This document shows, in pieces, positions 24,481 through 44,787 of a stretch of 50,759 bases of DNA. The notes beneath the pieces are model-generated. The model worked only from the letters and a program-made list of their open reading frames with translations. It had not been told where the DNA came from and did no database searches. Each line of letters starts with the position of its first letter. Position 1 is the first letter of the stretch. The stretch comes from Acidobacteriota bacterium (GTDB lineage Bacteria > Acidobacteriota > Vicinamibacteria > Fen-336). The stretch covers positions 1 through 50,759 of the forward strand of contig QHVM01000025.1 of assembly GCA_003223555.1 (NCBI GenBank), in the 5' to 3' direction. Both the position numbers and the translations under genes were made by a program.

Positions 24481-24536
24481 GCTGGGAGTGTGGCACGAGG
24501 GCCGGCCATCGCGCGAGCCCCGTGCGGGGAAGGGGT

Positions 24537-24562
24537 CTGGGGGGACCGGACCGTCCCCCCAG
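24537..24562 (-). terminator. 10-bp hairpin downstream of the DUF6496 gene
   Basis: On the plus strand CTGGGGGGAC (24537-24546), a 6-nt loop, GTCCCCCCAG (24553-24562). On the minus strand it follows the DUF6496 stop by 9 bp. The flank AGCTGGGGGG and the following CCAGACCCC match the metK-linked repeat copy at 44191, so it looks like a reduced member of that family. Confidence 0.55.
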
Positions 24563-24571
24563 CTCGAGAAG

Positions 24572-32185: not shown

Positions 32186-33988
32186 TTATGGGACCGGCTT
32201 GACGGCCTGGCGGAAAGCCTCCGCGTCCAGGGTGTTCAGCACCTCGCCCTTGCGCACCCATCCGCGGCGGGCCATCGCCACCCCGTAGCGGAAGTTCAGC
32301 AGCGCGCGCACGGAATGGGCGTCGGTGGAGACGACGAAGCGCAGGCCGCGGGCCCGCGCCTCGCGCAGCCAACGCGGCTCCATGTCCAGGCGATGGGGAT
32401 CGCCGTTGACCTCGACCGCGGCCCGCGAGCCGGCCGCCGCGTCCAGCACCTCCTCCACCCGGCAGGCGATGGGCGGGCGGCTCCGAACGTAGCGGCCGAG
32501 AGCGTGGCCCCAGATCTTGAACACCGGCAGCCGCATGGCCCGCACCAGGCGGCGCGTCATCTCGTCCTCGCCCATGCGGTACCGGTTGTGGACGCTGGCG
32601 ATGACGACGTCGAGCTGTTCGAGGATGCGGTCCGGATAGTCCAGTCCGCCGTCGGCCAGGATGTCGCTCTCGGTGCCGCGCAGCAGGCGCACCTTCACCT
32701 TCTCCTGGGCGCGGGCGATGTCCTCCCACTGCCGCTTCAGCCGGTCCTCGGCGAGGCCGCCCGCGTAGTGCGCGGTCGGCGAGTGGTCGGTGATTGTGAT
32801 GTAGTCCATCCCCAGCTCCTGTGCCCCGCGCGCCATCTCTTCCACGGTGTGCTTGCCGTCCGAGTAGCTCGTGTGGCAGTGGACGAAGCCGCGGACGTCG
32901 TCCTCCTGCACGAGGTCTTGCGGGAGCGCGCCCGCGGCGGCCGCCTCCACTTCGCCTTCGTCCTCCCGCAGCTCCGGCGGGACGTACTGCAGGCCGAGCC
33001 GGAGGTAGAGCGCCGCCTCGTCGGGGACGGCCAGCGCCGCGCCGCCCGTCCGCCGCAAGGAGCGCGGCGAGAGCACGAGGCCCCTCGCCTGCGCCCGGGC
33101 CTGGAGCTTCGCGTAGTGCGCGGACGAGCCGGTCAGCCGCACGAGGGTCGGCGCGTGCTCGGCTGGCGCGACCGCTTCCAGCTCGGCCTGCACGCCGTCG
33201 GCGAGCCGGACGCGGCACCGGCCGGCCTCGCGCTCCACGACCGCCGCCACCTGTGGCATGCGGAGGAAATGATCGACCACCGCCTCCGCTTCCTGCGACG
33301 ACACCGCCAGCTCGAGGCGATCGACGGTCTCGCACTTGCGCCGCGCCTCCCCGGCCACGTCCACCCGCGATGCTTCCCGCGAGGCCTGCAGCCAGGCTTG
33401 CGCCGCTTCGCCGGCGCGTAGCGCCTCGGGGAGGAGCAGCGTCTGGCCGCGCGCCTCCAGCTGGGCGATGCCGTCCAGGATCTTCTTCTCCGTCTTCTCG
33501 CCGAACCCCTTCACCCCCCGCAGCTTGCCCGCCTCGGCGGCGGCCTTCAGCTCGGCCACGCTGCGCACGCCGAGGGCCCGATGCAGGACGGCGATGCGCT
33601 CGACGCTCAGGTGCGGGACCTGGACGAGGTCGAGGATCCCCGGCGGCAGCTCCGAGCGCAGCCGCTCGAGCAGCGGCGAGCGGCCGGTCCGATGCAGCTC
33701 GGCGATCTGGCCGGCCAGGGCGGGGCCGATGCCGCGCACTTCGGTCAGCCGGCCGTCGGCCACCAGGCGGGCGAGGTCTCCGGCGAGGGCCTCCACCGCG
33801 GCCGCCCCCCGGTGATAGGCGCGGGCCCGGTAGGGGTTTCCCCCCTTCACCTCGAGCAGGAGACCGATCTCCCTCAGCGCCGCCGCGACAGCGATGCGGT
33901 CCTTCGCTCGCTCGGGAGTGAATCCCTCGCTCGCTCTTTGAGCCGGGGGGCGCTGCGCGCCCCCCGAACCCCCATCGGAGGCGTTCAC
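32186..33988 (-). CDS. polX: PolX-family protein with intact PHP domain and degenerate polymerase site
   Basis: A 600-residue protein from GTG 33988, which overlaps the stop of the VKOR-DsbA gene. Residues 30-110 form the 8-kDa/HhH part (VAAALREIGLLLEVKGGNPY, LTEVRGIGPALAGQIAEL). Palm and fingers follow to about 345, and a PHP exonuclease domain fills 370-595 with HCHTSYSDGKHT, YITITDHSPTAH, RGTESDIL, IASVHNRYR and STDAHS all present. The polymerase acidic residues are not: where PolX has GSxRR...GDxD the protein reads VAGEARRKCETVDRLEL, and the third Asp is Glu in VQAELEAV. So repair nuclease activity is likely and nucleotide addition is doubtful. The first 30 residues are translated from a mobile-looking hairpin repeat. 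Confidence 0.87.
   Translation of the reverse strand: MNASDGGSGGAQRPPAQRASEGFTPERAKDRIAVAAALREIGLLLEVKGGNPYRARAYHRGAAAVEALAGDLARLVADGRLTEVRGIGPALAGQIAELHRTGRSPLLERLRSELPPGILDLVQVPHLSVERIAVLHRALGVRSVAELKAAAEAGKLRGVKGFGEKTEKKILDGIAQLEARGQTLLLPEALRAGEAAQAWLQASREASRVDVAGEARRKCETVDRLELAVSSQEAEAVVDHFLRMPQVAAVVEREAGRCRVRLADGVQAELEAVAPAEHAPTLVRLTGSSAHYAKLQARAQARGLVLSPRSLRRTGGAALAVPDEAALYLRLGLQYVPPELREDEGEVEAAAAGALPQDLVQEDDVRGFVHCHTSYSDGKHTVEEMARGAQELGMDYITITDHSPTAHYAGGLAEDRLKRQWEDIARAQEKVKVRLLRGTESDILADGGLDYPDRILEQLDVVIASVHNRYRMGEDEMTRRLVRAMRLPVFKIWGHALGRYVRSRPPIACRVEEVLDAAAGSRAAVEVNGDPHRLDMEPRWLREARARGLRFVVSTDAHSVRALLNFRYGVAMARRGWVRKGEVLNTLDAEAFRQAVKPVP
33901..33973. repeat. Two-hairpin dispersed repeat, copy 1, inside the 5' end of polX
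   Basis: The copy begins CCTTCGCTCGCTCGGGAGTG, contains an imperfect CGGGA/TCCC stem, and then a 10-bp hairpin CGGGGGGCGC-TGC-GCGCCCCCCG at 33944-33966, ending CCCCC. It matches the copy at 44151 at most positions. In polX it encodes residues in the range of 5-30, so it supplies a low-complexity N-terminal extension. Confidence 0.8.
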
Positions 33989-42974: not shown

Positions 42975-44141
42975 TCACGCCTCCCACGGCAGGCCGGGGC
43001 GGCCGAAGTGGCCATAGTTCGTCGTCCGCCGGTAGATGGGCCGCAGCAGGTCCAGGCGCTCGATGATGGCGGCGGGGCGGAAGTCGAAGCCGCGGACGAA
43101 GTCGGCCGCCGCCCCGGCGTCACCGGTCCCGAACGTGTCCACCAGGACGGCGATGGGCTGGGCGACTCCGATCGCGTAGGCGACCTGGATCTCGAGGCGC
43201 TCGGCGACCCCCGCCTGCACTGCCTGGCGAGCGACGTAGCGGCAGAAGTACGCCCCGCTGCGGTCGACCTTGGAGGGGTCCTTCCCGCTGAAAGCCCCTC
43301 CCCCGTGGCGCGCCGCGCCCCCGTAGGTGTCGACGATGATCTTGCGGCCGGTGACGCCGCAGTCGGCGGCCGGCCCGCCCTTCACGAAGCTGCCGCTGGG
43401 GTTCACGGTGAAGCGGGTGGAGCGGTCGAACCATCGGCCAAGCGCGCGGGGAGCGAGCACCGCCTCCACGTAATGCCGCACCACCGCGGCGTCGACCTCG
43501 GGCGCGTGCTGCGCCGAGACGAGGACCTCGGTGACGCGCGCGGGTTGGCCGCCCTCGTAGGCGACCGAGACCTGGGTCTTGCCGTCCGGACGGAGCCAGG
43601 GGACGGCGCCGGACCGGCGGTCTTCGGCGAGGCCCCGGGAAAGGGCGTGGGCGAGGAGGATCGGCAGGGGCATCCGCTCCGGCGTCTCGGCGGTGGCATA
43701 GCCGAACACGATGCCCTGGTCGCCCGCCCCCTGCTCGCCGACGTGGTTGGTCGTGGGATCGACGCTGCGGCCGATCTCCCAGCTCTGGCCGGTGAGGTGC
43801 TGGAGCACGTGGACGCCGCCGGCGTTGAACGGAGCGAGGGGATCGTCGTAGCCCAGCTCGCGTACCGCCTCGCGCACCAGGGGCAGGTGGTCCAGGACGG
43901 CGATGGAGCTGATCTCGCCGGCCAGGACCACGATGCCCGACTTGCAGAGGACCTCGCACGCCACGCGGCTCCTCCGGTCCAGCTCCAGGTACGCGTCCAG
44001 GATGGAATCCGCGATGTAGTCGCAGACCTTGTCGGGGTGGCCCTCCGCCACCGATTCGGAGGTGAGCACGAGGGTCGCCGGCCTGCCCCGGGGGCCGGCG
44101 ACGCTGGACCGCGCCGAGGTCGCTTCGCCGAGCGTGCTCAC
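42975..44141 (-). CDS. metK: S-adenosylmethionine synthetase
   Basis: A 388-residue protein from GTG 44141, whose codon overlaps the stop of the small upstream ORF (GTGA). Signatures: TSESVAEGHPDKVCDYIADS at the N-terminus, GEQGAGDQGIVFGYA for methionine/ATP binding and the phosphate loop GGGAFSGKDPSKVDRSGAY. It makes S-adenosylmethionine from methionine and ATP. Upstream on the same transcript lie a SAM riboswitch (44604-44693) and a hairpin over the ribosome site of the small ORF, so product feedback on expression is likely. A copy of the two-hairpin repeat lies just before its start. Length is normal. Confidence 0.95.
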   Translation of the reverse strand: MSTLGEATSARSSVAGPRGRPATLVLTSESVAEGHPDKVCDYIADSILDAYLELDRRSRVACEVLCKSGIVVLAGEISSIAVLDHLPLVREAVRELGYDDPLAPFNAGGVHVLQHLTGQSWEIGRSVDPTTNHVGEQGAGDQGIVFGYATAETPERMPLPILLAHALSRGLAEDRRSGAVPWLRPDGKTQVSVAYEGGQPARVTEVLVSAQHAPEVDAAVVRHYVEAVLAPRALGRWFDRSTRFTVNPSGSFVKGGPAADCGVTGRKIIVDTYGGAARHGGGAFSGKDPSKVDRSGAYFCRYVARQAVQAGVAERLEIQVAYAIGVAQPIAVLVDTFGTGDAGAAADFVRGFDFRPAAIIERLDLLRPIYRRTTNYGHFGRPGLPWEA

Positions 44142-44515
44142 GCCGCGTGGCCTTCGCTCGCGCGGGAGTGAATCCCGCGCTCGCTCTTCAAGCTGGGGGG
44201 TGCTCCGCACCCCCCAGACCCCCCGCTCGAGTGATTCCCGCGCGATGCTCCACATCTCTCGGACCCCCTGCGCCCGTCGAGGCGCAGGGACAGCGCGCAG
44301 CCGCGGGCGCTCGGGTACTCCCGCAGGACCTCGTCCCGGCGCGCGCGCGCCTCGGCCAGGTCCGCGGTGCCGAGCGAGAAGCGGATGCGCTCCTTCTGCC
44401 ATCCCGGCAGGTGCACGGTGAACGCGATCCACCAGCGGTGGCCGTTGCGCCAGAGGTGGTGGTCGGGATCGATCGGACGGGGATTCGAAGAGGGGAACGG
44501 CTGGCTCTGGGCCAT
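44138..44515 (-). CDS. Small Arm-domain-like protein between the SAM riboswitch and metK
   Basis: A 125-residue protein from ATG 44515 with GGAAGGAG upstream. Residues 15-75 (DPDHHLWRNGHRWWIAFTVH, RIRFSLGTADLAEARARRDE) follow the three-strand-plus-helix pattern of the Arm DNA-binding domain of tyrosine integrases, without any catalytic domain. From about residue 95 the sequence (SGGSGGCGAPPSLKSERGIH) is translation of the dispersed repeat, so the natural C-terminus was probably shorter. Its stop overlaps the metK start, which couples metK translation to this ORF. Function is unknown; its place directly after the riboswitch makes it the first gene controlled by SAM. Confidence 0.65.
   Translation of the reverse strand: MAQSQPFPSSNPRPIDPDHHLWRNGHRWWIAFTVHLPGWQKERIRFSLGTADLAEARARRDEVLREYPSARGCALSLRLDGRRGSERCGASRGNHSSGGSGGCGAPPSLKSERGIHSRASEGHAA
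44151..44223. repeat. Two-hairpin dispersed repeat, copy 2, before metK
   Basis: CCTTCGCTCGCGCGGGAGTG begins the copy. Stem 1 is GCGCGGGA-GTGAA-TCCCGCGC (44160-44180). Stem 2 is CTGGGGGGTGC-TCC-GCACCCCCCAG (44193-44217), then ACCCCCC. Relative to the copy at 33901, two base pairs of stem 2 change on both sides (C-G to T-A), so pairing is preserved. It is read in the same frame here as in polX. Confidence 0.8.
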
Positions 44516-44516
44516 G

Positions 44517-44542
44517 GTGTCTTCTCCTTCCGAAGAAGACAC
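44517..44542 (-). promoter_or_regulatory. Hairpin holding the ribosome site of the SAM-controlled small ORF
   Basis: GTGTCTTCT pairs perfectly with AGAAGACAC around an 8-nt loop, ending 1 nt before ATG 44515. The Shine-Dalgarno GGAAGGAG spans the loop and the start of the 3' arm, so folding would hide it. Just upstream on the transcript another perfect stem, GGCGCGGC-CGAAA-GCCGCGCC (44549-44569), could be the competing or linker structure. Confidence 0.65.
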
Positions 44543-44603
44543 CCGGAGGGCGCGGCTTTCGGCCGCGCCGGACAACTTCGTTGCCTCGTTCCGGCTCGAG
44601 GCC

Positions 44604-44693
44604 ACATCTCCCGTCGGCTCGTGCCGATCGGGACGGCACCTTGGGTTGCCCCCCCAGGTTGCCGGGCCCGCTTCCGCGGGTCTCTCCGGATGT
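44604..44693 (-). promoter_or_regulatory. SAM riboswitch (SAM-I/SAM-IV clan) upstream of metK
   Basis: On the minus strand P1 is formed by ACATC and GATGT at the two ends. Inside are the core elements GAGAG, a GC stem, CCCGGCAACC, then CAAGGTGCC, a stem ATCGGC/GCCGAC-like P4 and GGGAGATG. The pair CGGCAACC plus AAGGTGCC is the hallmark of the S-adenosylmethionine-binding core. The usual P2 kink-turn and pseudoknot are shorter than in classic SAM-I, so it may be a SAM-IV-like or variant form. It precedes the small Arm-like ORF and metK, and a sequestering hairpin covers the first ribosome site, so control is probably translational. Confidence 0.75.
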
Positions 44694-44701
44694 CGAAGAA
44701 G

Positions 44702-44730
44702 AATATGACTCCTCCCGAGGACGAATGCAA
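44702..44730 (-). promoter_or_regulatory. Housekeeping-type promoter of the riboswitch-metK transcript
   Basis: TTGCAT (-35) and CATATT (-10) on the minus strand are separated by exactly 17 nt. The start point would fall just before the riboswitch P1 stem, which fits a transcript that begins with the aptamer. Confidence 0.55.
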
Positions 44731-44787
44731 GCGCCGGCTTGTGTCATAGCCTGTGGTAGGCTCGTCGAGTCCCCCGAGGAGGACGCC

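Follow-up and report, generated by a model that had tools for sequence, protein, structure and literature searches.

The locus lies on the minus strand of the window, by which we mean the whole stretch of 50,759 nt analyzed here, from an Acidobacteriota bacterium of the class Vicinamibacteria. A promoter with the -35 element TTGCAT (44725-44730) and, after a 17-nt spacer, the -10 element CATATT (44702-44707) was recognized from the sequence and from relatives, which keep TTGC at the same place. It is followed by an aptamer of the SAM-I/IV class (44570-44693), by a GC-rich hairpin (44549-44569, seen in the sequence and in the fold) between the pseudoknot tail and a switch strand, and by a perfect hairpin (44516-44543) that covers the Shine-Dalgarno (SD) sequence GGAG (44527-44524) and reaches the ATG. 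Then come a small ORF of 125 aa (44138-44515), with an Arm-like core at about residues 15 to 80, and metK, encoding S-adenosylmethionine synthetase, with a GTG start (42975-44141; Pfam S-AdoMet_synt N, M, and C domains). The TGA stop of the ORF (44140-44138) overlaps the GTG of metK (44141-44139). This succession, from the promoter to the metK overlap, had been proposed in an earlier note made from the sequence, and all of it was present. In addition, a box, TATGACAC (44741-44748, minus strand), predicted to be an operator, lies 10 nt upstream of the -35 element, at a fixed distance from P1 of the aptamer. The folding energy of the whole leader was 5.7 SD below that of dinucleotide shuffles.

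Aptamer class and alternative pairings of the leader

The aptamer almost certainly belongs to the SAM-I/IV class and is predicted to bind SAM. The earlier note had suggested covariance models as a check, and these were positive for RF01725 (SAM-I-IV), with a score in the window just under the cut-off, and negative for RF00162 (SAM-I). In an 801-nt search, RF01725 matched 44698-44567 with 38.3 bits (E = 1.6e-4). The curated gathering cut-off is 41.1 bits, and for this reason an Rfam scan of the window at the gathering threshold found nothing. The aptamer of a same-genus relative passed the cut-off with 41.5 bits, and other relatives scored up to 45.1 bits. The window aptamer was the sole RF01725 match in its own genome, even at E<=10, and RF00162 had no match in that genome while its controls matched. 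A custom RNA model built from the aptamers of 20 relatives scored the window aptamer, itself among the training sequences, at 111.7 bits (E = 2.8e-19).

The SAM-clan core of P1, P2, and P3 with its conserved junctions was found in the RF01725 alignment, over positions 1-99, and in pair counts. P1 is formed by 44693-44689 pairing with 44608-44604. P2 is one continuous helix, with no internal loop or kink-turn in two alignments and in the fold; in the window, one basal position of the helix is mismatched. The P4 hairpin (44634-44609) folds in the window; its stem is variable among relatives and lies outside the covariation counts. P5 (44602-44583) is present in the window and in the custom-model structure. 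The PK-2 pseudoknot joins the P3 loop (44651-44646) to the 3' tail (44575-44570); its pairs were 91.4% paired in 32 leaders, with two-sided changes in three of them. Weinberg et al. (2010, PMC2864571) reported the class from several phyla under the name SAM-I-IV-variant, and its anatomy, compared elsewhere with those of SAM-I and SAM-IV (PMC6890682), has the same core, unsplit P2, P3, P4, P5, and PK-2. The aptamer had been noted to look shorter than classic SAM-I. It does differ from SAM-I, but as a member of a separate class with a single P2, P4, P5, and PK-2 and not through truncation. The locus differs from the class as described in three features: the target, which is a standalone gene for an Arm-like mini-protein; a switch that sets the 5' strand of P1 against an SD-masking strand located far beyond the 3' end of the aptamer; and the TATGACAC box upstream. 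The leaders of three verrucomicrobial loci (L073, L074, and L076) are SAM-I/IV-like but strongly diverged and barely or not detected by Rfam, and may form a sub-class.

Computation yielded two alternative sets of pairings for the leader. Strand A (GACAUCCGGAG, 44684-44694) includes the 5' side of P1. It can form 11 pairs with strand C (CUCCGGGUGUC, 44538-44548), giving the ON structure. Alternatively, strand A pairs with strand B, the 3' side of P1, and strand C pairs through GGUGUC with strand D, the SD-masking strand (GACACC, adjoining the SD), giving the OFF structure. The latter, consisting of P1, P2, P3, PK-2, and the SD hairpin, was counted on 32 aligned leaders. Its pairs were formed in 90.8% of the cells of the alignment, versus 31-51% for slid registers, and 19 pairs had two-sided changes, versus 9.4 in shuffles. 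Covariation was seen for each of these elements; in the SD hairpin (fold of -23.1 kcal/mol, z = -3.1), 6 of the 9 pairs had changed on both sides across relatives. The A:C helix of 11 bp was paired in 86.5% of the cells, versus 36-53% for slid registers, in the same 32 leaders. Its CCGGAG half is mostly invariant, with few two-sided changes, which counts against the proposed switch. By eye, CACGAG opposite CUCGUG replaces CCGGAG/CUCCGG in the verrucomicrobial locus L073, a compensating change that lies outside the alignment counts. With ligand and pseudoknot energies left out, the window leader gave an ON minus OFF value of -4.2 kcal/mol, and the leaders with well-aligned helices ranged from about -6 to +3 kcal/mol. 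The two structures are thus nearly equal in energy, so that the energy of the ligand and the pseudoknot could tip the balance. Before strand D is made, A:C is preferred by 15.7 kcal/mol. In the proposed mechanism, SAM binding would close P1 (A:B) and leave GGUGUC to pair with GACACC (C:D), hiding the ribosome site. When SAM is absent, GACAUCCGGAG would pair with CUCCGGGUGUC (A:C), and the ribosome site would be free. The riboswitch is probably a translational OFF switch for the mini-gene, with this direction of switching.

The mini-protein and the distribution of the unit

The conserved core of the ORF is about 70 aa long. In an alignment of 33 members, H-H-L-W, N24, R43, R45, S-L, T50, A-R, and R-D are invariant. 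Compared with the same-genus relative, the core had a dN/dS ratio of about 0.04, and comparisons with other family members gave values below about 0.3; the mini-protein is under purifying selection. The end of the ORF, its last 25-30 codons or so, is formed by a dispersed repeat (44151-44229) with other copies in the window (33901-33973 and 24532-24567) and at many sites in its own and the sister genomes, and the length of 125 aa is therefore particular to this genome. This repeat is GC rich, with palindromic parts. In the sister genome, the ORF has 96 aa and still touches metK (junction TGATGA). The junction is TAATG in Verrucomicrobia bacterium IMCC26134, and an overlap or near-overlap of the stop with the metK start recurs in relatives without the repeat.

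The mini-protein shares with the Arm domains of integrases (DUF6538 and Arm-DNA-bind_3; structures 3jtz and 3ju0) the pattern LW.NG..WW..FTV...R.RxSLgT.d...AR..RD. A beta-beta-beta-alpha fold, which would be like theirs, was predicted for it with moderate confidence (mean pLDDT of 66.7). Weak matches to DUF6538 were found in 31 of the 33 members, and to Arm-DNA-bind_3 in 8. The window ORF reached 22.6 bits with DUF6538, under the Pfam curated value of 27, and the matches were sub-threshold in all members listed individually. The protein was therefore filed as Arm-like and not as a member of the Arm domain family. A search with the mini-gene profile also matched the N termini of longer frames. 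For one of these, a 459-aa Phage_integrase protein, hhalign gave an E value of 1.2e-5 and a probability of 81% over its residues 11-52. Unlike integrases, the mini-protein lacks the recombinase catalytic domain: Pfam found no Phage_integrase match in the window ORF, and the frames of relatives are short. Also unlike the Arm domains of integrases, it stands under a SAM riboswitch. Foldseek with the predicted model gave no significant match in the PDB; 3jtz and 3ju0 were among the weak matches (Z of about 4; 4.2 for 3jtz), not above unrelated chains. A sequence search of the PDB found no match, and searches of NCBIfam and PHROGs found no meaningful one. We lean toward reading the mini-protein as a regulator that binds nucleic acid, and the most likely form of such a role is that of a DNA-binding regulator in SAM/methionine control.

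An alignment built on the ORF core and run against GTDB genomes detected 35 loci, under titles of Acidobacteria/Vicinamibacteria, Planctomycetota, Deltaproteobacteria, and Verrucomicrobia, and nearly all were short standalone frames. The custom model placed an aptamer directly upstream of the small ORF in 41 of 46 loci, including loci outside the training set; these 46 sources include some genomes present under two identifiers and most of the 20 training sequences. RF01725 matched the verrucomicrobial L073 and L074 aptamers at the right place (E values of 0.026 and 0.064). Neither model found an aptamer at L076, L153, or L079, the last a doubtful member. RF01725 usually gave a single match, before the mini-gene, in each of the 27 mini-gene genomes searched, and a strong match to the mini-gene was found in 13 of 396 sampled genomes of the window's phylum. 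The near-constant coupling of riboswitch and mini-gene thus recurs in Acidobacteriota, Planctomycetota, 'Deltaproteobacteria' MAGs, and Verrucomicrobiota, that is, in at least three phyla. A search of openly accessible papers found none that links a SAM-I/IV riboswitch to an Arm-like protein.

Homologous small ORFs between riboswitch and metK were found in Vicinamibacteria and in Verrucomicrobia bacterium IMCC26134. The order of aptamer, masking hairpin, ORF, and metK was seen in six genomes of the window's family (G001, G003, G006, G009, G011, and G013) and in one of another family (G035). Among the loci compared, metK lies directly downstream of the mini-gene only in L045-L050, L065, and L073, and it lies upstream instead in L075. 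In the acidobacterial genome G024, the aptamer and the ORF are present and the next gene is not metK. At the other loci scanned with Pfam, the next genes are unrelated (PAC2, penicillin amidase, HTH, AAA, and others), except at L069, where a Cys/Met PLP enzyme follows. Since most lineages have the riboswitch and the ORF without metK, it is the mini-protein that stays constant as the target. The earlier note had proposed that SAM feedback on metK passes through the small ORF. The order of the genes here agrees with that, but the proposal does not extend to a general rule. A riboswitch followed by metK with the ORF absent was not seen: all metK-linked cases found carry the ORF. The description of the protein as unrelated is probably wrong: that it is so regularly found with a SAM sensor suggests a role in SAM/methionine control. 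In the window, metK is the following gene on the strand of the mini-gene and would be cotranscribed with it and coupled to it translationally. Because of the overlap, abundant SAM should lower the expression of both.

The upstream box and the role of the mini-protein

TATGACA or ATGACAC was found 50-71 nt (mostly 53-57 nt) before P1 in 36 of the 42 small-ORF loci, in several phyla. In shuffled upstream sequences, the box occurred in a mean of 0.27 loci, with a maximum of 3. Two loci, L048 and L050, carry TATGACGC. In genomes bearing the mini-gene, variants of the box also precede two riboswitches that belong to other genes. At L016, TATGTCAC stands at the box position. At L139, the second SAM-I/IV-like riboswitch of G062, the genome of L053, two tandem copies of ATGACAC lie upstream, and the riboswitch precedes a different gene. 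No box was found before the riboswitches L018, L020, and L138 or before any of the 10 riboswitches of family f3 (L002-L011), whose genomes lack the mini-gene. Four Luteitalea-like loci (L065, L146, L148, and L149) keep the mini-gene and the riboswitch and lack the box; the rest of the promoter core is conserved among these four. The window's genome holds only 8 exact copies of TATGACAC. None of the others precedes a recognizable methionine gene, and they fall within or close to unrelated frames, so that the idea of a wider regulon around TATGACAC was rejected for this genome. The extra box matches that were read in relatives looked random.

Given its fixed and conserved place, the box is probably acted on by a conserved factor at the DNA level. 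The mini-protein may be this factor and may act on its own promoter; that it binds TATGACAC is a tentative proposal. Given the Luteitalea-like loci and the lack of a box before other methionine genes, protein and box are linked by correlation only. Our main reading, to which we give a probability of roughly 0.7, is that a SAM-I/IV-class riboswitch turns off translation of a standalone Arm-domain mini-protein, whose gene is followed and overlapped by metK in this genome. The unit of riboswitch and mini-protein is real and conserved, and the role of the protein as a regulator is the hypothesis that we attach to it.

The locus could also be read as an ordinary metK riboswitch, with metK as the real target and the small ORF as a translated leader that relays regulation by translational coupling. 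In agreement with this, metK overlaps or closely follows the mini-gene in Vicinamibacteria family f1, and follows it in the Luteitalea-like family (at about 80 nt or more) and in a verrucomicrobium. However, at most of the other loci, in Planctomycetota, 'Deltaproteobacteria' MAGs, and G024, the riboswitch is followed by the ORF without metK behind it, and the conservation of the protein sequence across phyla is unexpected for a mere leader; we consider this reading unlikely. Far less probable still is that the mini-gene is a remnant of an integrase or mobile element lying by chance behind the riboswitch. The Arm homology and the dispersed repeat that ends the ORF here would fit such an origin, but the gene is standalone and of similar size over several phyla, is under strong purifying selection, keeps its place behind the same riboswitch, and had no match in 50,697 phage records. 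We rejected it on the grounds of this conservation.

A stronger competitor, though one that we still hold to be rather improbable, concerns what the mini-protein acts on. It could act on RNA or on a protein partner such as MetK, and the box would then belong to another conserved regulator. Small beta-sheet-helix folds can also bind RNA. Such an action would fit two findings: in the window's genome, no other exact copy of the box precedes a methionine gene, and the Luteitalea-like loci keep the protein while lacking the box. Against it, the closest sequence relatives of the mini-protein are the DNA-binding Arm regions of integrases, the box and the mini-gene co-occur over phyla, and the mini-gene is not always near metK.

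A DNA-binding mini-protein is the preferred form of the main reading. Its widest version, likewise tentative, is a multi-phylum control of SAM/methionine in which an mRNA leader senses SAM and a standalone Arm-domain protein recognizes TATGACAC both at the promoter of its own gene and at a small number of further promoters. MetJ, which has a ribbon-helix-helix fold, binds SAM itself. The mini-protein would resemble it as a small DNA-binding regulator of SAM/methionine genes that answers to SAM, with the difference that the sensor would be the mRNA leader and not the protein. If so, RNA would do the sensing in a MetJ-like loop, the SAM-I/IV riboswitches of several phyla would mainly govern a regulator and not an enzyme, and SAM feedback would reach genes without a riboswitch. 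An integrase Arm domain would have been recruited as a stand-alone regulator, and an unnamed protein family would gain a context that bears on function and a candidate DNA site. The pairing suggests an overlooked layer of methionine/SAM control.

Other arrangements of the same riboswitch class were seen as well. The riboswitches of family f3 are canonical and precede other small frames, for example one beginning MPHQQALAT, with no Arm-like ORF; at one of them (L006), the frame resembles aspartokinase. L016 (1501-1629, in G011) is a second riboswitch of the same design, with a masking hairpin, that lies directly before a metY-like (Cys/Met PLP) gene, named from its sequence, with no mini-gene between them.
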